Virus record (IMG/VR): IMGVR_UViG_3300034021_000250
Span: 1-57,086 of that record
Direction: 5' to 3' (one strand)
Length of the DNA: 57,086 nucleotides
DNA from: a virus
Below the pieces are notes generated by a model. That model did no database searches. It worked only from the letters and a program-made list of their open reading frames with translations, and had not been told where the DNA came from. Positions 167 to 57,086 of the stretch are shown here, one piece after another (within the stretch, counting starts at the first letter, position 1; each line of letters begins with the position of its first letter). The position numbers and the translations under genes were made by a program.

Positions 167-1156
167 ATGGCTAACATAAATGTCAAAATTATGGGTACTG
201 ACCCGTTCAATAAACTAGTACTTGTAGCTTGTGCCACAGAAGGCAGCGTAAAACCGCTAGAAGAGCAACCGTTATCTGCATACCCATTTGACTTTGGCGG
301 CGCTACTAACGTTGATGAGTTTTTAGCTAACATCCAAGACTCTTGCCGAGAGAAAGCTTTCGCACAAGACCAAGTTTCTTCAGCTGAATATACCGCAGAT
401 AATTGGGTAGGCGCTACAAGCACATTCACACCAGTTCCAGTAGATACTTCAGAATTTACATTCCAAGCTCGAAAAGACGCTATTTACGCAACATACCCAG
501 CGGCTAATATGGACGCTGTAAATGCATTGTGCAATAGGAAGTGGAATCAGATGCAGCTTGCTCCATTACGTAGAGACGTTGACGCTACTATCGTTGGTGT
601 ATATGTAAATGGCTACGGTGGTATGAACGCAGCGGATGCAGCGATTGCACTTCGTTCTATCAAAGAGGCGACTAATGAGTGTGTAGCATTAGGTATCCCG
701 ATGTGCGGAGGCACTACTCCCGTAGACGGTATGTCTAGAGAACGCTTTGAATCATTCCTAACAGGAATTTCGCAATACAATAAGTTTATCAATACAGTTA
801 AACAAAGCTACGTTTACCAAGACTGGAATATTGTATTTGCTAGAAACCGTAAAGCAACACTAATCAAATCAGAGTGCCAGAAGGTAATTGCAGGAGGACT
901 TAACTTCGACGAACACGTATGGGATTCTGATGCTGCTAGCAGAGCTAATATCACTAACTATTTAGTAGCTAACCCTACACTTACAACAACAGAATGGCGT
1001 ACTAAAGGTAATGAACTAGTTAGAGTAGACCTAGCGTTGTTGAGCAAAGCTTTATCGGACTTCGTAACAGCGACGTATCAGGAATCTTGGGCGCGTAAAG
1101 CAGCGCTAGCAGCACTACCACCTGAAACAACTGAGGCTGAGGTCGATGCTATCTAA
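167..1156 (+). CDS. Fibre-associated protein with C-terminal DUF4376-like domain
   Basis: This 329-residue protein starts at an ATG preceded by AAGGA. Residues ~250-329 (tryptophan, a DAASRANI-type stretch, then TEWRTKGNELVRVDL) match the pattern of the DUF4376 domain found at the C-terminus of phage tail-fibre assembly or fibre-associated proteins. The N-terminal half is not recognised. It follows the adhesin gene directly, which supports a role as a fibre chaperone or fibre-tip component. No signal peptide or membrane segment is visible. The end overlaps the next start by 11 bases, so it is translationally coupled to the desaturase gene. The DUF4376 call is by eye. Confidence 0.6.
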   Translation: MANINVKIMGTDPFNKLVLVACATEGSVKPLEEQPLSAYPFDFGGATNVDEFLANIQDSCREKAFAQDQVSSAEYTADNWVGATSTFTPVPVDTSEFTFQARKDAIYATYPAANMDAVNALCNRKWNQMQLAPLRRDVDATIVGVYVNGYGGMNAADAAIALRSIKEATNECVALGIPMCGGTTPVDGMSRERFESFLTGISQYNKFINTVKQSYVYQDWNIVFARNRKATLIKSECQKVIAGGLNFDEHVWDSDAASRANITNYLVANPTLTTTEWRTKGNELVRVDLALLSKALSDFVTATYQESWARKAALAALPPETTEAEVDAI

Positions 1157-2018
1157 TGACGCCAAAGTTAAACTTACCCAAGCATTTGTTTATTTAGTCG
1201 CAATCGCTACAGTAGTATTTGCTTGGGACGCTAAGTTATTTTTATGGAGTTTAGCCGCCGGGTGGATCATGTTCGGGATCGGTGGGAGCATATGTCTTCA
1301 CAAACTATCTTCTCACGGTTCCTTCACACCTAAGAACAGGCTAATCAAATGGGCGCTTTTGTGGTTTGGAACTATCAGTTCTTTAGGTAGTACGATTTGT
1401 TGGGCGGCTGGGCATCGTGAGCATCACCAACATGCGGACAAGAATACTGACCCTCATAGACCATACGGTTCAATGTGGCACAAAGTTAAGATGTGGTTCT
1501 ACTATTTCCCAACATGGGATATTAGTCCGCTGATTGTTCGTGATTTAACACAAGACCCAGACCACCGGTTCTTTCACCGGCACTACTACAAGATCATCAT
1601 TAGCTACGTAGTTTTGCTGTTCTTGATTAACCCTGTTTATGTCGGATACTTCTACGCTATACCGGTACTGTATACATTGTTCGGGATTAGCTGGGCTACT
1701 GTAATCGCGCATATCCCGCAGCTAGGGTATTTCTCATGGAGGACGTACAACACTCCTGACTACACGTACAACAGTAATTTCTGGAATGTACTTTTAATGG
1801 GTGAAGGCTACCACAACACGCACCACGCATGTCCTTGGCTATGGAATAACGCTTTGCACGACGGTGAGTGGGACGCTTCAGCTTGGGTGATTAAGTTGAT
1901 TGGTATACCTAATGATTTTCCTGCGAAACCGCATAAACCACCAAGAACAGGTAAGGCTTTACGCGCTGAGTTGATGGAAGTAAGGCGCAAACTTCAGGAA
2001 GGCGGACATGAGTCTTAA
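1146..2018 (+). CDS. Membrane fatty-acid desaturase (delta-9/acyl-lipid type), copy 1
   Basis: A 290-residue polytopic membrane protein with all three desaturase histidine boxes: HKLSSH (52-57), HREHH (90-94) and HNTHH (223-227, in a GEGYHNTHHACPW context). These bind the di-iron centre that inserts a double bond into acyl chains. Hydrophobic segments at ~10-50, 66-88 and 148-195 give the usual four-helix topology. Length matches short bacterial delta-9 desaturases. It overlaps the preceding gene by 11 bases and the next one by 11, so the four genes here form a tight unit. Substrate (acyl-lipid, acyl-CoA or the neighbouring ACP) cannot be read from the sequence. Box 1 has H-K rather than the common H-R. 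Confidence 0.92.
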   Translation: MLSNDAKVKLTQAFVYLVAIATVVFAWDAKLFLWSLAAGWIMFGIGGSICLHKLSSHGSFTPKNRLIKWALLWFGTISSLGSTICWAAGHREHHQHADKNTDPHRPYGSMWHKVKMWFYYFPTWDISPLIVRDLTQDPDHRFFHRHYYKIIISYVVLLFLINPVYVGYFYAIPVLYTLFGISWATVIAHIPQLGYFSWRTYNTPDYTYNSNFWNVLLMGEGYHNTHHACPWLWNNALHDGEWDASAWVIKLIGIPNDFPAKPHKPPRTGKALRAELMEVRRKLQEGGHES

Positions 2019-2823
2019 ACTTACCCACTATCAGAACACTAAGTTACTTCAGGTGTTCGCTTGGGCTGGTACAGCATACTTGCTAATTTGCCATTGGAGT
2101 ACCACCCCTATCGGTTGGTTGATGTTGTTTGGGTGGTTATCTTCAGGTATTGGTTTGGGTATCTGCCACCATCGCTATGCAGCGCATAAGACGTTTGAAC
2201 CAAAGAACAGACTTATTAAGTGGTTCATTCTGTTCGTAGGCACAATCATTACTCATGGCTCTGTCATCGCTTGGACAATCACACATAGATACCACCACAG
2301 GTTCTGTGACACTCCTAGCGATCCTACTAACCCTGAAGGTAGTTGGTGGCACAAGATTAAGTGCTTCTTCTATTACTTTGGCGACATAGAAAGACCGAAC
2401 AGTAACGTGATGGTTTTAGACCTAATACGTGATGAGGATTTTCAATTTTTCCACAAATTCCACTTCCCAATTATCTTCACTTACATTGGGGTGCTAGCGC
2501 TTATTAATCCGATGCTGGTGTTGTACTTCTATTGCTTCCCAGTGTGCTACGTACTATTTACATCAGGCTGGGTGACTACGTTAGCTCACTCTCCGGCGTT
2601 AAGTATATTTGGGTATAGAAACTACGATACGCCAGACAAGACGTTTAACAGTGTCTTTTGGCAAATCTATTCAATGGGTGACGGATACCACAATAACCAC
2701 CATGCATGCCCGTGGTTGTGGAACATGGCAGTGACTAAATATGAATTTGATATATGCGGTCAGTTAGTAAAACTAATTGGGTATCCAAACGACATACCAC
2801 CAACAAAAGTTAAGGATAAGTAA
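2008..2823 (+). CDS. Membrane fatty-acid desaturase, copy 2 (paralogue)
   Basis: A 271-residue paralogue of the preceding desaturase with intact boxes HRYAAH (55-60), HRYHH (93-97) and HNNHH (228-232). The shared FxPKNRLIKW motif after box 1 and GYHNxHHACPWLWN around box 3 show that the two copies arose by duplication or are close relatives. Other parts differ, suggesting distinct regiochemistry or substrates. Four hydrophobic segments are visible. The start overlaps copy 1 by 11 bases and the stop abuts the oxygenase start (TAATG), indicating coupled expression. An intact set of iron ligands in both copies argues that both are active. Confidence 0.92.
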   Translation: MSLKLTHYQNTKLLQVFAWAGTAYLLICHWSTTPIGWLMLFGWLSSGIGLGICHHRYAAHKTFEPKNRLIKWFILFVGTIITHGSVIAWTITHRYHHRFCDTPSDPTNPEGSWWHKIKCFFYYFGDIERPNSNVMVLDLIRDEDFQFFHKFHFPIIFTYIGVLALINPMLVLYFYCFPVCYVLFTSGWVTTLAHSPALSIFGYRNYDTPDKTFNSVFWQIYSMGDGYHNNHHACPWLWNMAVTKYEFDICGQLVKLIGYPNDIPPTKVKDK

Positions 2824-3440
2824 TGCACTTAGCAATAACAGATTTGTTTCCTACCGCTTTAGCTTCAGTCAGATTAGGTAGAGCATTTACAGATGATGAG
2901 CTAGCTTTTATTGATAGTGAGGCTACCAACACACTTAAGTTTGACTCTCTAATGGGAAAGAACCTAAACATTCTAGATGACCCAAGATTAAGTGATATTA
3001 AGAAGTTTATTGAGGAAGCGGCTAACCAGTACCTGAAAGAAGTCATGTCTAGCAATACGGACGCGTCTTTATATGTAACTCAATCTTGGTTAAACATAGT
3101 GAGTGCTGGTAATAACCAAGGTATGCATATTCACCCTAACAGTTTCTTGACCGGAGTTATTTACATAAAGGTACCTCTAGGAATAGAAGGGTTGGTATTC
3201 CATAAGCACCTTAATTACATAGGTCTAAGAGTCGACCCTGAAGTGCGTAATAAATATAACGAAGAAGACCGTGTAGAGTTAGTACAAGAAGGGCAGGTAC
3301 TTATATTCCCATCAAATTTAATGCACGGAACGCTTACACACGCATCAGTTGATACACCAAGAGTAGCAATTGCCTTTAATACTTTTATACGTGGGACTGT
3401 AGGCAGTATGTACGGGTATAACGAACTAACACTAAGCTAA
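2823..3440 (+). CDS. 2-oxoglutarate/Fe(II)-dependent oxygenase
   Basis: A 205-residue protein resembling the short 2OG-Fe(II) oxygenases common in aquatic phages (TIGR02466/2OG-FeII_Oxy_5 type). The segment GMHIHPNSFLTGVIYI (H102, H104) followed by a distal FPSNLMHG (H168) and TPRVAIAFN (R180) fits the double-stranded beta-helix iron site and the 2-oxoglutarate-binding arginine. The reaction would be hydroxylation of an unknown substrate. Being sandwiched between desaturases and an acyl carrier protein suggests, as inference only, an acyl or lipid substrate. The start shares bases with the previous stop. Confidence 0.8.
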   Translation: MHLAITDLFPTALASVRLGRAFTDDELAFIDSEATNTLKFDSLMGKNLNILDDPRLSDIKKFIEEAANQYLKEVMSSNTDASLYVTQSWLNIVSAGNNQGMHIHPNSFLTGVIYIKVPLGIEGLVFHKHLNYIGLRVDPEVRNKYNEEDRVELVQEGQVLIFPSNLMHGTLTHASVDTPRVAIAFNTFIRGTVGSMYGYNELTLS

Positions 3441-3446
3441 GGAAAA

Positions 3447-3686
3447 ATGATGGAACAACTTGTAAAACAGATGATTGCCAACAGATTAGATATTGACATT
3501 AGTTTGGTGACTAACGAGGCTAGACTTGTGAAAGACCTTAAAGCAGACTCTCTGGACACAGTCGAGCTTTTGATGGAAATCGAGAGAATGTTAAAGCTAA
3601 GGATTGATGACAGCAGCCTAGGTGATATTTCTACTGTACAGAACATTATTGATCTGGCGGTTAAGCTTCAAGCAACTACAGTTTAG
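3447..3686 (+). CDS. Acyl carrier protein
   Basis: A 79-residue acidic four-helix protein with the phosphopantetheine attachment motif LKADSLDTVEL; the modified serine is S35. Length and motif position match type II fatty-acid ACPs. It would need host holo-ACP synthase for activation. It follows the oxygenase by 6 bases with an AAGGA ribosome site and is 12 bases ahead of the large tail-protein gene. A phage ACP next to two desaturases implies that the acyl chain may be presented to them as acyl-ACP; the sequence does not prove this. There are two adjacent ATGs; the first is used here. Confidence 0.9.
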   Translation: MMEQLVKQMIANRLDIDISLVTNEARLVKDLKADSLDTVELLMEIERMLKLRIDDSSLGDISTVQNIIDLAVKLQATTV

Positions 3687-3698
3687 TTAGGGGTTTCT

Positions 3699-6600
3699 AT
3701 GCCAGCACAAAGAATAAAGCAGTTTTCAGGAGTTATACCTAGAGTCGACCCACGGGATATTCCTGAGAATGCTGCACAAGACGCGACTAACGTCTTCCTA
3801 ACGTCTGGTCGTATAGACCCGATGCTGCAACCTACAACTGTAGCCACGACGCGGTCAAGTTTAGTTCAGACCATCTACCGATTGTTTAACGGTACTTCTT
3901 CCTACTGGTTAAACTGGTTAGAGCAAGTTGATGTAGCAGAGTCGCCAGTATATGTCTCTAATAACGCAAGGATTGCTTTTACATCACATAGTTTTGAGCC
4001 AAGACAAACCGACCTTACGCTTGCATCAGCATCGCTACCTTATCCAGCTCAGTGGTATGTGCTAGGCGTAACGCCACCCATTACAGAGGCAACGTGTTCT
4101 TCAATCGTAGGCGGTTCTGGAACAGTAGAGAGTCGTTCATATGTATATACATATGTTACACAGTGGGGCGAAGAATCCGCACCGTCTCCTGCGTCTGTTG
4201 TCACAATCCCAGCTGCGACTATTACTGGTTCGATTGCAGATACTACTTTGACAGTATCAGCCATTACATCAGGCTCACTTTCTTTCTCAGGTCAGACTCT
4301 ATCTGGCACCGGAGTCACTTCAGGGACTAAGCTATTAAGCCAACTTACATCAAGTGAAGCAGCGGTAGCTTCAAGATCCTATGCAGTAGGTACACCAGCA
4401 GGGTCAAAATCGCTAACACTAGCTACATTTACAGGTATATCTTACGGTATGTTTGTGACAGGAACTGGTATCCCAAGTAACACTATAGTCACCAACACGC
4501 ACGATAATACTGTTGAGATATCTAGGGCGACTACGGCACAAGCTTCAGGTACGTATAAATTCTGGACAGCTAAGACTAGTTCTAACTTCGCTTACGGCGG
4601 AGTTTCTGGCGCTACTACTATTGCTTTAAGTTATATGAATAACATTGCAATCGGGCAACTTGTATTAGGTACAGGTATCCCAGCAGGGGCTACAGTAACA
4701 GCACTATCAGGAAATATCGCGCAGAGCTTTGCAAGTGGCGGCGCTTATAACACTTCTAGCATTGTATTCGGTTCTGTATCAGGGATTGCCGTAAACCAAT
4801 TTGTAACTGGCGCTGGTATTACAACGGGTACAATCGTAACAGCTATCGACGTCCCAAATAAAACGGTTTCTATATCGCGCCCATTGTCTGTTCAAGCTGT
4901 TGGCGGGTACTCGTTCAATGCCCAGACAATTACAATTTCTGCAGCGCTTACCGAACAAGCAACAGGTACATATGTATTCTTAGATTCAGTGACAAGCAGT
5001 ACATTCCAAGGCGGCGGTAACGCTGGCGCAACATCTTTTGATCTGTTGAATATATCGTCAGTAGCTGTAGGACAATTAGTATCAGGAACTGGTGTACCAG
5101 CTGGAACAACGGTAACAGACGTATCCAGCACTAATAAGATCAGTATTTCGAACGCGTTAACTGCTCAAGCAGTAGGGGCATACGCGTTTTACAACCAAGG
5201 TGGATTAGGTACGTACGAAGTAGATACTTCTCAAACCGCTGCAAGCACTACAATTTCTACTGCTACAAGTGCAGGTTACAGCAACGCAACATGGAACATT
5301 AATATTCCTGATGTAGCGCCAGCTAACACATACACAATCTCTGCAGCGACGTATGCAGATGGAGTACTTACCCTTACGCTTAATACAACCTTTGGTCTTA
5401 GAGCCTTAGAGTTTCTGAACTTTGTAAACGTAGGCGGTATTACAGACTTAAACTACAAGTCATACCAAGTACAGTCAGTTAATGCAGCGTCTAAGCAAAT
5501 CACTATTAATATAACTACAACGCAGTCTTACGTATCAGGCGGCACCGCTACACGGGATGCTCCGCACAACACAGATAAAATGATGAAGCGCGTTTACCGG
5601 ACTGTTACTACAGCTACGGGTACTAACTTCTATCAGGTAGGCGCAGACTTACCAGTAGCAACAACTACGTTCGCAGATAATTACGTAGCTATTGGTGGAC
5701 AACTTGTGACTAGTGGCTGGGTAATGCCTCCAGCTAACCTTCAAGGTGTAGTAACGCATCCTTCAGGGGCTTTAGTTGGGTTTGTAGGTAATACGATATA
5801 TATGTCACAACCCTACAGCATTTACGCTTGGCCTATAACACAAACTAACACGTTAGATTATACGGTCGTAGGGCTAGGAATTACAGGGCAGTCAGTTGTA
5901 GTAGGTACTGAGGGTAGACCATACGTTCTTACATTTACAGACCCTGCTGCTGCGTCAGCACAAAAGCTAGATAACAACTGGCCTTGTTTAGCTAAGAAAG
6001 GTATCACTACCCTAGAGAACGGCGTGCATTACCCATCAACTCTTGGGCTAGTTTATATCGGGGCATCAGGTGCTTCGCTTATATCTGAGAAGTTCTACGC
6101 ACAAAGAGATTGGGCGGCACTTAACCCTAGCTCATTTATCGCGGCGCACTATGACAGTAGATACTACGCGTTCCACGACGACGGTGAAAACCCTCAGATA
6201 CTTATGTTCTCAGGAAGCACTGGTATCTCGTATATCAACTACCAGCCTACAGCAATGTACACAGACCGTAAGAGCGGCGAGATTTATGTAGCATCTAATG
6301 GTTTCGTGCAGCAACTAAACTCTGGTACAGGTTTGTTCATGCAATACAGCTGGAGAAGTAAAGAGTTTGTCAATCCAAACCCAGTTAACTTAGGCGCATG
6401 TAAAGTAGACTTTGAAGGTGCAGTTACAGCCAGTGATGCGGCAGCGATTGAGGCAGCTAATAACGCGATTAAAGAAGCGAACGTATCTTTGCTAGCCAGC
6501 CCTTTAGGTGTGTTGAATGTAGCTCCACTTAACATGTACCGTGTAGACGGGTCGAACTTAGCCGACTTGTATGTACCAGCAGCTAGCGCATCTTACGTAT

Positions 6601-6776
6601 CAATCTCGTTGTACGCTAACGGGAAACTACAGTTCACAAAAGTGGTAAACGATACAAAAGTTTGGCGTTTCCCAGCAGGACTTAAATACGACAATTACTC
6701 AATCGGGATTACTGGTACAGCCCCTGTTAAAGCAGTGGTTCTAGGCGGTACTCCTATGGACTTGAAAGCAGTATAA
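3699..6776 (+). CDS. Large tail/virion protein with tandem beta repeats
   Basis: A 1025-residue protein. The N-terminus (residues 1-120) and the C-terminal ~400 residues resemble the podovirus tail-tube/stabilisation proteins that sit between portal and needle. Residues ~200-510 hold about five copies of a ~60-residue unit with the signature GQLVxGTGIPAGTxVT followed by KxxSISxxLTxQAxGxYxF, likely beta-sandwich or beta-solenoid repeats. It has no signal peptide. Ribosome site AGGGG precedes the ATG. The gene starts the tail/ejection gene run. The assignment rests on gene order and composition; a fibre-like decoration protein is the alternative. Confidence 0.65.
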   Translation: MPAQRIKQFSGVIPRVDPRDIPENAAQDATNVFLTSGRIDPMLQPTTVATTRSSLVQTIYRLFNGTSSYWLNWLEQVDVAESPVYVSNNARIAFTSHSFEPRQTDLTLASASLPYPAQWYVLGVTPPITEATCSSIVGGSGTVESRSYVYTYVTQWGEESAPSPASVVTIPAATITGSIADTTLTVSAITSGSLSFSGQTLSGTGVTSGTKLLSQLTSSEAAVASRSYAVGTPAGSKSLTLATFTGISYGMFVTGTGIPSNTIVTNTHDNTVEISRATTAQASGTYKFWTAKTSSNFAYGGVSGATTIALSYMNNIAIGQLVLGTGIPAGATVTALSGNIAQSFASGGAYNTSSIVFGSVSGIAVNQFVTGAGITTGTIVTAIDVPNKTVSISRPLSVQAVGGYSFNAQTITISAALTEQATGTYVFLDSVTSSTFQGGGNAGATSFDLLNISSVAVGQLVSGTGVPAGTTVTDVSSTNKISISNALTAQAVGAYAFYNQGGLGTYEVDTSQTAASTTISTATSAGYSNATWNINIPDVAPANTYTISAATYADGVLTLTLNTTFGLRALEFLNFVNVGGITDLNYKSYQVQSVNAASKQITINITTTQSYVSGGTATRDAPHNTDKMMKRVYRTVTTATGTNFYQVGADLPVATTTFADNYVAIGGQLVTSGWVMPPANLQGVVTHPSGALVGFVGNTIYMSQPYSIYAWPITQTNTLDYTVVGLGITGQSVVVGTEGRPYVLTFTDPAAASAQKLDNNWPCLAKKGITTLENGVHYPSTLGLVYIGASGASLISEKFYAQRDWAALNPSSFIAAHYDSRYYAFHDDGENPQILMFSGSTGISYINYQPTAMYTDRKSGEIYVASNGFVQQLNSGTGLFMQYSWRSKEFVNPNPVNLGACKVDFEGAVTASDAAAIEAANNAIKEANVSLLASPLGVLNVAPLNMYRVDGSNLADLYVPAASASYVSISLYANGKLQFTKVVNDTKVWRFPAGLKYDNYSIGITGTAPVKAVVLGGTPMDLKAV

Positions 6777-6999: not shown

Positions 7000-7422
7000 A
7001 TGACAAAACGCATCCTTTGCACCGAGTCCGATAAGGTTCGCGTAGGCGAATGGGTGTTTGCTCGCACAGGCGGAAAATTCCTTCCAGAGATAGCACAGGC
7101 AATAGGTTTAGAGAAAGACGGCGAGCTTATTGCAGGGGCCGTTTTTGAGAGCTGGAACGGAGCTGTTGTGTACGGTCATTTAGCAATTGCTAATAAGTAC
7201 GGCATGAATCGCGAGTTCCTAAAGTTCAACTTCCAATATGTTTTTAACCAACTAAAAGCTAACAAGTTAGTAGGTATGGTAGCAAGCACAAATACAGACG
7301 CTATCAAACTAGATGAAAACTTTGGGTATGTATTAGAAGCAACTATTAAAGATGGTGTACCAAATGGCGACATGCTTATTTACACGATGACTAAAGAGCA
7401 GTGCCGATTTTTGAAGGACTAG
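7000..7422 (+). CDS. GNAT-family N-acetyltransferase
   Basis: A 140-residue protein with the size and pattern of GNAT acetyltransferases: a strand pair around GELIAGAVFESW, a central helix, then a VGMVASTNTDAIKLDENFGYVLE segment resembling GNAT motifs A/B (a conserved Asn followed by a helix and the GFxxE-type strand). GNAT proteins are frequently encoded just upstream of podovirus ejection proteins. Target is unknown. It has its own promoter (6966-6994) with a start codon predicted at the 5' end of the message. It ends 3 bases before the next gene. Confidence 0.65.
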   Translation: MTKRILCTESDKVRVGEWVFARTGGKFLPEIAQAIGLEKDGELIAGAVFESWNGAVVYGHLAIANKYGMNREFLKFNFQYVFNQLKANKLVGMVASTNTDAIKLDENFGYVLEATIKDGVPNGDMLIYTMTKEQCRFLKD

Positions 7423-55459: not shown

Positions 55460-56374
55460 ATGCCAGCATTAGTCACCAACAATGCTTCAGCGACACTAGC
55501 AACAGGTATTACGGCGGTAGCCACAACGATTACATTAGGTACTGGGCAAGGTGCTTTGTTCCCTTCCCCACTAGGCACATCAATTTTCTATGCAACACTA
55601 GTTAACTCTAGTAACCAAGCTGAAGTTGTTAAAGTAACAGCACGAGCAACGGATACGTTAACTGTGGTTCGTGGACAAGATAGCACAACAGCTCGTGCTT
55701 ATAGTACAGGCGATAAGCTTGAACTTCGTCCTACAGCTGCATTATTTAACGCCAAGCTTGACGCTGATACAGCGGCGCTTACATATGCTCCCCTAGGCGG
55801 TACTGGTGCTTCAGGTACTTGGCCTATTTCAGTGACTGGTAACGCTGCCACATCTTCTTCATGTACTGGTAACGCTGCTACATCTTCTTCATGTTCTGGT
55901 AACTCTACGACAGCAACAACCGCATCTGCGCTAAATACAGCCAATAACTACCAAGGTAACTCCTTTGGTGTTGGTACTGCAGCGTCAGGTACGGCTGGTG
56001 AAATTCGCGCAACAAACAACATTACAGCTTATTACTCAGACGAACGTCTTAAAGATGTCCTAGGCCCTATCGTAGACGCGCTAGCAGCAGTTAACACGTT
56101 AAGCGGTGTTCGATACAAGGCAAACGCTGTAGCAGGTTCTTTCGGCTATAACACAGAGCGTGTTGAAGTTGGTGTCTTAGCACAAGAAGTTGCAGCAGTT
56201 CTTCCTGAAGTAGTAGTTCCAGCTCCATTCGATATTGCTCAGGCCGATGATGGTACTGAGTTCAGTTTGAGTGGTCAGGGTTACTTAACAGTGCATTACG
56301 AGCGAATTGTTCCGCTGCTTATTGAAGCTATTAAGGAGCTGTCAGCTAAAGTTGCTGTATTGGAGAATAAATAA
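55460..56374 (+). CDS. Tail fibre with C-terminal S74 chaperone domain
   Basis: A 304-residue fibre. Residues 1-110 are beta-rich (TLGTGQGALFPSPLGTSIFY), residues ~115-160 contain a short repeat (GNAATSSSC type), and residues ~190-304 are an S74 intramolecular chaperone (YSDERLKDVLGPIVDALAAV, GVLAQEVAAVLPEVV). The chaperone would trimerise the fibre and be cleaved before SDERLK. AAGGAGG ribosome site. Confidence 0.85.
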   Translation: MPALVTNNASATLATGITAVATTITLGTGQGALFPSPLGTSIFYATLVNSSNQAEVVKVTARATDTLTVVRGQDSTTARAYSTGDKLELRPTAALFNAKLDADTAALTYAPLGGTGASGTWPISVTGNAATSSSCTGNAATSSSCSGNSTTATTASALNTANNYQGNSFGVGTAASGTAGEIRATNNITAYYSDERLKDVLGPIVDALAAVNTLSGVRYKANAVAGSFGYNTERVEVGVLAQEVAAVLPEVVVPAPFDIAQADDGTEFSLSGQGYLTVHYERIVPLLIEAIKELSAKVAVLENK

Positions 56375-57086
56375 TGACTCTTCCAGCTTCAGGTGCTATC
56401 TCTACAAACAATATTAACGTAGAACTCAGGTTCGCGGCAACAGCTGTAATAACGCTGAATGATGCGCCACTTCGTTCGTTAGCTGGCAAACCATCCGGGA
56501 GTATCGCACTAGGTAACTTCTACAGCTTACAGTCTAGGTTGCCTTTATCGAAAGTTATTTCAGCTAATACGAATAACTACACATTCTCACCAGCGTCTGT
56601 CGCCGGATATATTGCAGGTATTACAGACGCGACACTGACTATTGGTAGCGGCGTTGTCGTGGGGTCTGCTTCTACAGGATCGTTCGGACTAACCATTTCA
56701 GGGTGGGCAGCTGGTGACAGGGTTTACCTTGTAAATAACGGATATATCGTAGGCGCAGGTGGTAATGGTAACGGCGGTGCAGGTGGGCCAGCGCTATCAA
56801 CGTCAATTGCGACTTTCATTACAAATAACGGGACTATCGGCGGCGGCGGCGGTGCAGGTGGTGGTTCACAGGCTTATTCATATTCAGGTGGTGGACACCC
56901 TCCATCAACTGTCTATGTTGCGGCGGTAACAGGTGGTGGTGGTGCTGGCTCTGTCGCAGGTTCGCCCGGAGGCACTTTAACTGCAGGTGGCGGTGGTGGT
57001 GGTGGTGGCGGAGCATTAGGTGCAGCAGGAGGGTCTTCAACATGGGGCGGTGGAGCTGCTGGAGCAGCAACTTCCGGGAATGCGAA
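56374..57086 (+). CDS. Glycine-rich tail adhesin, N-terminal part (continues at base 2)
   Basis: MTLPASGAISTNNINVELRF, ITLNDAPLRSLAGKPSGSIA and LGNFYSLQ form the N-terminal region shared by many phage tail-tip proteins. A beta-rich middle is followed by several poly-Gly runs. The frame is cut by the window end; bases 56988-57086 repeat bases 1-99, and the gene finishes at base 145, giving 252 residues. Receptor binding is inferred. The start overlaps the preceding stop (TAATG). Confidence 0.82.
   Translation, partial: MTLPASGAISTNNINVELRFAATAVITLNDAPLRSLAGKPSGSIALGNFYSLQSRLPLSKVISANTNNYTFSPASVAGYIAGITDATLTIGSGVVVGSASTGSFGLTISGWAAGDRVYLVNNGYIVGAGGNGNGGAGGPALSTSIATFITNNGTIGGGGGAGGGSQAYSYSGGGHPPSTVYVAAVTGGGGAGSVAGSPGGTLTAGGGGGGGGGALGAAGGSSTWGGGAAGAATSGNA
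56988..57086. repeat. Terminal direct repeat (contig circularisation overlap), right copy
   Basis: Exact duplicate of bases 1-99; see left copy. Remove one copy to obtain the 56,987-bp circle. Confidence 0.93.

Follow-up and report, generated by a model that had tools for sequence, protein, structure and literature searches.

The window analyzed here is the whole 57,086-base stretch of an IMG/VR virus record (IMGVR_UViG_3300034021_000250), whose direct terminal repeat of 99 bases indicates that the genome is probably complete. At positions 1146 to 3686 it hosts a cassette of four genes for acyl-chain chemistry, embedded among structural genes. All four lie on the forward strand and encode a membrane di-metal desaturase of the SCD1 type (Des1, 290 amino acids (aa), 1146..2018), a paralogous desaturase (Des2, 271 aa, 2008..2823), a putative 2-oxoglutarate (2OG)-Fe(II) oxygenase (205 aa, 2823..3440) and an acyl carrier protein (ACP, 79 aa, 3447..3686). 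On the same strand, the cassette is preceded by the gene of a DUF4376 tail protein (167..1156; PF14301, E-value 1.9e-14, and PHROG tail families) and followed by that of an internal virion protein (3699..6776; phrog_511), which is outside the lipid module. The genes are tightly packed: an 11-base overlap joins the end of the DUF4376 gene, which stops at 1156, to the start of Des1, another of 11 bases joins Des1 to Des2, a common TAATG links Des2 with the oxygenase, and a gap of 6 bases separates the oxygenase from the ACP. Most starts are preceded by purine-rich stretches resembling ribosome-binding sites. The GC content of the cassette (0.39-0.45, compared to 0.44 for the genome) bears no clear foreign signature, and a promoter scan over 9 kb found none where 16 were expected by chance, an outcome that we do not interpret. 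The initial annotation of this DNA had described the four genes, their overlaps and their structural flanks, and all of these hold: the open reading frames (ORFs) are intact and each scores above its Pfam cut-off. It had also placed the cassette late in infection, a timing for which the support comes from gene context.

Both desaturases match PF00487 (FA_desaturase) with scores of 60.1 and 52.5 bits (E-value 3.7e-16 and 7.7e-14), compared to a curated cut-off of 29.7. Their histidine boxes had been reported as intact, and nine histidines of Des1 (H52, H57, H90, H93, H94, H189, H223, H226 and H227) are indeed invariant in 32 viral desaturases. This set fits the SCD1-type di-metal site, composed of three histidine boxes and a further histidine ligand. 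When the predicted structure of Des1 (predicted local distance difference test, pLDDT, 92.6; predicted template modelling score, pTM, 0.90) was compared to the PDB with Foldseek, SCD1 structures were the only significant matches (best E-value 4e-8). Mammalian SCD1 (4ymk, 6wf2, 4zyo) shares the fold and the nine-histidine metal site with the Des1 model, at 16-18% identity in structural alignment, and the substrate carrier of the window desaturases probably differs from that of SCD1; the prediction settles the fold and the metal site and does not extend to how the substrate is presented. In a maximum likelihood tree of 131 desaturases, Des1 and Des2 group in a clade with good support whose 60 rows are exclusively viral. 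Orthologs of Des1 are present in all three genome backbones described below, and Des2 forms its own sub-clade, with an ortholog (84%) in the short contig L004 (L-numbers label the virus records and loci that we compared with the window). Des1, Des2 and the ACP are under purifying selection, with a ratio of nonsynonymous to synonymous substitutions (dN/dS) of approximately 0.05-0.3 between relatives where computable. This low ratio, together with the recurrence in 31 virus records, rules out chance.

Virus-encoded fatty acid desaturases of cyanophages were reportedly described by Roitman in 2018, as later citations have it. Virus desaturases (vFADs) of cyanophages and brine viruses, with a proposed role in membrane fluidity (Zhong 2020, PMC7300359), are according to the accessible part of that report phage-borne PF00487 proteins with an SCD1-like fold, intact histidine boxes and purifying selection, sometimes in several copies. 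The window desaturases likewise display the phage-gene flanks, the intact histidine motifs and the purifying selection that serve as criteria for vFADs. Following the model published for cyanophage and sea-ice virus enzymes of the same family and fold (PMC7300359), Des1 and Des2 would unsaturate host phospholipid chains in bulk, the ACP would just aid host fatty-acid synthesis and the oxygenase would be an unrelated passenger. We regard this as unlikely, since it leaves unexplained the recurrent ACP, the phage-borne holo-ACP synthase (AcpS), the presence of at least two divergent desaturases and the co-inheritance with a tail protein, all reported below. The same part of the vFAD report describes no ACP, oxygenase partner or tail-protein co-inheritance.

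The oxygenase matches PF13759 (2OG-FeII_Oxy_5) with 68.5 bits (cut-off 27, E-value 7.4e-19). The initial annotation had credited it with its iron ligands, and this stands in part: a conserved metal-binding-like triad is present, with H102, H104, H168 and R180 invariant in eight relatives, but the motif reads H-x-H...H...R rather than the textbook H-x-(D/E)...H. The corresponding HIHP is also read in the related solved structures 3bvc and 2rg4. In L003, a near-sister of the window phage, a cupin (L003:9632-10084) stands in place of the PF13759 oxygenase, and the HxH...H pattern is common to both, which suggests from their sequences that the oxygenase at 2823-3440 and the cupin may be interchangeable three-histidine iron enzymes. 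Cyanophage 2OG-Fe(II) oxygenases (phrog_81) belong to the same family, with many relatives at 28-32% identity; unlike them, the window oxygenase is coupled with desaturases and an ACP. The latter matches PF00550 (PP-binding) with 33.3 bits (cut-off 20.8, E-value 6.1e-8), as well as phrog_5934 and NCBIfam ACP models, and the serine that receives phosphopantetheine (D-S), already recognized in the initial annotation, is invariant across 12 viral ACPs.

To collect relatives we used single-sequence scans, which returned four virus contigs, and profile scans, which returned many more from IMG/VR, and gene maps were built with hidden Markov models. Through the internal virion protein, no relative was found that fitted the exact patterns. 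Related desaturases (DES) occur in a corresponding island of 31 distinct virus records, several of them near-identical; this count includes L173 and L174, where the same DES-DES-ACP set is present and DUF4376 is not recognized. The order of the island is fibre - small Cys protein (c7) - DUF4376 - DES - [cupin] - ACP - [DES] - [cupin] - PF13759 oxygenase - further 2OG oxygenases - holin - endolysin. At L009:9308-11777, L012:3710-5911 and L020:6404-8032, the stretch from the desaturase-ACP genes to the holin/endolysin genes holds a run of three or four distinct oxygenases of the 2OG type. The ACP accompanies the island desaturase in 27 of the 31 records, always on the same strand and at distances from overlapping to 927 bases. 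The idea that the genes act as a set is therefore supported by a coupling within 1 kb, to which some viruses add AcpS, and in related phages the desaturase and the ACP are not scattered singly at random places. The four genes do not keep one exact order: at least three arrangements are found (DES-DES-[Oxy/cupin]-ACP, DES-cupin-ACP and DES-ACP-DES), with the cupin replacing the oxygenase in L003, no oxygenase in the short L004 contig and several oxygenases in other relatives. The constant core is thus the desaturase with the ACP, and the iron enzymes are exchangeable.

The island is hosted in three backbones, namely Bcep22-like (the window and L003), T4-like myovirus (L005, L017 and L174) and podovirus-like (L009, L010, L018, L032 and others), the last with a 722-aa protein similar to ones from phages of Caulobacter, Pelagibacter and Roseobacter. 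Couplings of desaturase and ACP are detectable also outside the island (L035, L049 and L191), and among 43 virus records with a desaturase, a PF00550 search identified an ACP in 17. As a bacterial control, none of the 80 best desaturase loci had an ACP within 3 kb; these loci are distant (identity <=31%), and the control contrasts settings rather than orthologs. Among cultured phages, one ACP query matched 16 out of 50,697 records. The four genes might still be independent cargo, gathered at a flexible site next to the fibre genes without forming a pathway, and this site is a mosaic in which oxygenases and cupins come and go. This seems very unlikely given that the ACP, so rare in cultured phages, is present in most of the island records, and that independent desaturase-ACP arrangements and additions of AcpS occur elsewhere.

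The search of cultured phages returned no reliable phage with the set. We rejected the desaturase matches in contigs of Acinetobacter phage MD-2021a because these look bacterial: CAKLQH020000002.1 and CAKLQF020000003.1 carry trpB, trpC, btuB and baeS, and resemble host chromosome deposited as phage. The only other match is the lone desaturase of Pelagibacter phage Mosig (MT647606.1, L198), which sits among Asp/Arg-hydroxylase, TauD, aminotransferase, MoaA-like and acetyltransferase genes and adjoins tail-fibre genes, forming another fibre-adjacent tailoring cluster.

The comparison between the window and L003 delimits a variable block. Identity is 87-99% in most upstream structural genes and 92-98% from the GNAT gene onwards, compared to 46% for the fibre, 41% for DUF4376, 43% for Des2, 36% for the ACP and 52% for the internal virion protein; within the block, Des1 shares 82%. 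These near-sister phages differ mainly over this block, which comprises exactly the fibre, the lipid genes and the virion protein. The left side of the block is occupied by a tail-fibre/collar-like protein (55460..56374, forward strand), 81% identical to L003 over only 143 aa, and by a Gly-rich fibre-tip-like ORF of 252 aa (56374..57086, forward strand), which crosses the terminal repeat, ends at around position 145 of the window and has no counterpart found in L003. We then measured Mantel correlations of pairwise identities in the 19 records with c7, which directly precedes DUF4376 (15 records for ACP and DES). Correlations were strong between DUF4376 and DES (r = 0.84) and between ACP and DES (r = 0.96), and not significant between c7 and DES (r = 0.11). 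When conditioned on c7, the first two remained at 0.83 and 0.96, respectively. As an example, L009 and L020 are 88-96% identical in c1 and c7, and only 36% in DUF4376 and 45% in DES. Since their identities co-vary strongly and that of c7 does not, DUF4376, the desaturase and the ACP travel between phages as one module. The DUF4376 tail gene is part of the exchange unit, beyond what the initial annotation saw; its observation of a cassette is correct, and the cassette is larger than first noted.

Taken together, the gene set and its intactness, the recurring desaturase-ACP coupling, the AcpS of some related viruses and the co-inheritance of DUF4376 are direct observations, from which we infer a chemistry. 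With a confidence somewhat short of even, we tentatively propose, as the most parsimonious reading, that the cassette is a phage-encoded, carrier-protein-dependent module for acyl-chain tailoring, exchanged between phages with a tail-fibre component. Host AcpS, or a phage AcpS in some related viruses, would load phosphopantetheine onto the phage ACP, which would then accept an acyl chain drawn from the host's pool. At the cytoplasmic membrane, Des1 and Des2 would desaturate the ACP-bound chain in turn, yielding two double bonds or an alkyne, and the HxH iron enzyme (a cupin or 2OG enzymes in relatives) would oxidize it further. Late in infection the product might enter a host envelope component associated with the receptor that the linked fibre recognizes, such as lipid A or a surface glycolipid reached via host acyl-ACP transferases, and could alter re-adsorption or superinfection. 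Gene context gives good support to the ACP step, and the final step is the weakest. An end use linked to the envelope or the receptor is favoured over general metabolism because of the position among structural genes and the linkage with a fibre component. A more specific version, in which the tail-fibre component and the ACP-dependent lipid-tailoring set are inherited as a unit and a custom acyl group matched to the fibre marks the virion or the host receptor, seems rather unlikely.

Several observations weigh against the proposed module. SCD1-type enzymes usually act on acyl-CoA or lipid-bound chains, so that the use of ACP here would follow from gene context. No loading enzyme or transferase was found in the window genome. 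Four of the 31 island records are without ACP (L007, L008, L012 and L076), some of them contig fragments, and sets of desaturases occur also away from fibres, as in L006 and its relatives, between the NrdB and glutaredoxin genes. Finally, physical linkage may partly account for the co-inheritance of DUF4376, whose DES-proximal half correlates better with DES. Linkage does contribute to this co-variation, yet the break at c7 is sharp.

The window ACP would depend on host AcpS. Phage AcpS was identified in 3 of 44 virus records: in the T4-like record of L174, with DES-DES-ACP, it lies at L203:3877-4278; in L049 a contiguous DES-ACP-DES-AcpS adjoins fibres; and in the record of L050 it clusters with two ACPs, FabZ and a ketosynthase. 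This last record, a huge putative virus of 364 kb, holds at L204:3585-13999 two ACPs, holo-ACP synthase, FabZ, a FabF-like ketosynthase and a desaturase, together with Rieske-like, hydroxylase-like and UbiB-like proteins, apparently a near-complete type II fatty-acid/polyketide-like cluster. Ketosynthases are present also in L034, L047 and L006, and L180 has three desaturases with an ACP. Arrays of desaturases lie beside fibres in L047 and L049, and in L047:2900-13930 five desaturases in tandem, together with a ketosynthase and two oxygenases of the PF13759 type, lie directly before a long S74-like tail-fibre gene. T4-like viruses (L006:4302-10047, and also L022, L026-L028, L030 and L031) carry two to four desaturases at this location away from fibres, and in L006 these are joined by KAS III, a TauD-like oxygenase and an acyltransferase of the NeuD-like kind. 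In L013-L016 (for example L014:7857-10889), L021, L023, L024 and L038, the desaturase is followed by a NeuD/LpxD-like left-handed-helix acyltransferase and, in L013-L016, by an S-adenosylhomocysteine hydrolase-like gene. Such a pair could possibly be a route from acyl-ACP to sugar.

Membrane desaturases with a dedicated ACP are also the logic of the JamABC terminal-alkyne cassette and of polyyne clusters (PMC8406139). By this analogy, the ACP-bound chain might become an unsaturated, acetylenic or hydroxylated fatty acid released as a toxin or signal, JamB/JamC- or polyyne-like, and the arrays of three to five desaturases, the ketosynthases and FabZ of other viruses go in the same direction. 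However, a fatty acyl-AMP ligase (PF00501; JamA) was detected in none of 43 virus records, with the control positive in 12 of 14 genomes, and because of this we ruled out that the cassette belongs to the JamABC/polyyne type. The seven-gene polyyne cluster has three desaturases, compared to two in the window. No thioesterase or exporter was seen in the window; a Pfam scan of 37 window proteins, with short ORFs left out and no targeted search, returned neither thioesterase nor rubredoxin. We consider a diffusible product quite improbable.

The modified acyl group might also be placed on the virion itself, that is, on the fibre or on the DUF4376 protein, which lies directly upstream and is co-inherited with DES and ACP, next to the Gly-rich tip ORF. 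This is highly doubtful, as no acyltransferase was identified. The GNAT gene at 7000-7422 was rejected as the missing acyltransferase because it belongs to the core genes of Bcep22-like phages that lack the cassette; it and the internal virion protein resemble those of Bcep22-like podoviruses. The predicted structure of DUF4376 (pLDDT 85) matches DUF4376 proteins themselves in BFVD and has no significant match in the PDB. Its residues ~95-220 show a weak likeness to the GNAT-fold anti-CRISPR AcrVA5 (E-value 0.15, insignificant), and with no sequence support we discarded a GNAT-fold domain in this protein. Elsewhere, the window encodes an integrase, Thy1, DNA polymerase A, an SU10-like portal and a Gp77-like fibre-tail adaptor.

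Roseobacter prophages with acpP-fabF-fabG (PMC8224337) are similar to the window in that they bear an ACP with enzymes of fatty-acid synthesis, but these are elongation enzymes, and no desaturase or fibre-linked island is described. Our literature search, with most subscription journals outside its range, returned no description of this gene set in phages. Known phage genes include desaturases, ACPs and 2OG oxygenases individually; none of the literature searched brings them together with a tail protein in a mobile unit.

Phage desaturases have so far been read as helpers of membrane fluidity. The dedicated ACP, the AcpS of related viruses and the inheritance alongside a tail protein point rather to a discrete biosynthetic module with a link to host recognition. 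Through the four-gene set, the function of fibre-adjacent phage desaturases and 2OG oxygenases becomes directly testable. If its product is identified, it could represent a new phage-made lipid modification or a new mechanism of superinfection or adsorption, and the module could provide a compact source of ACP-dependent desaturases.

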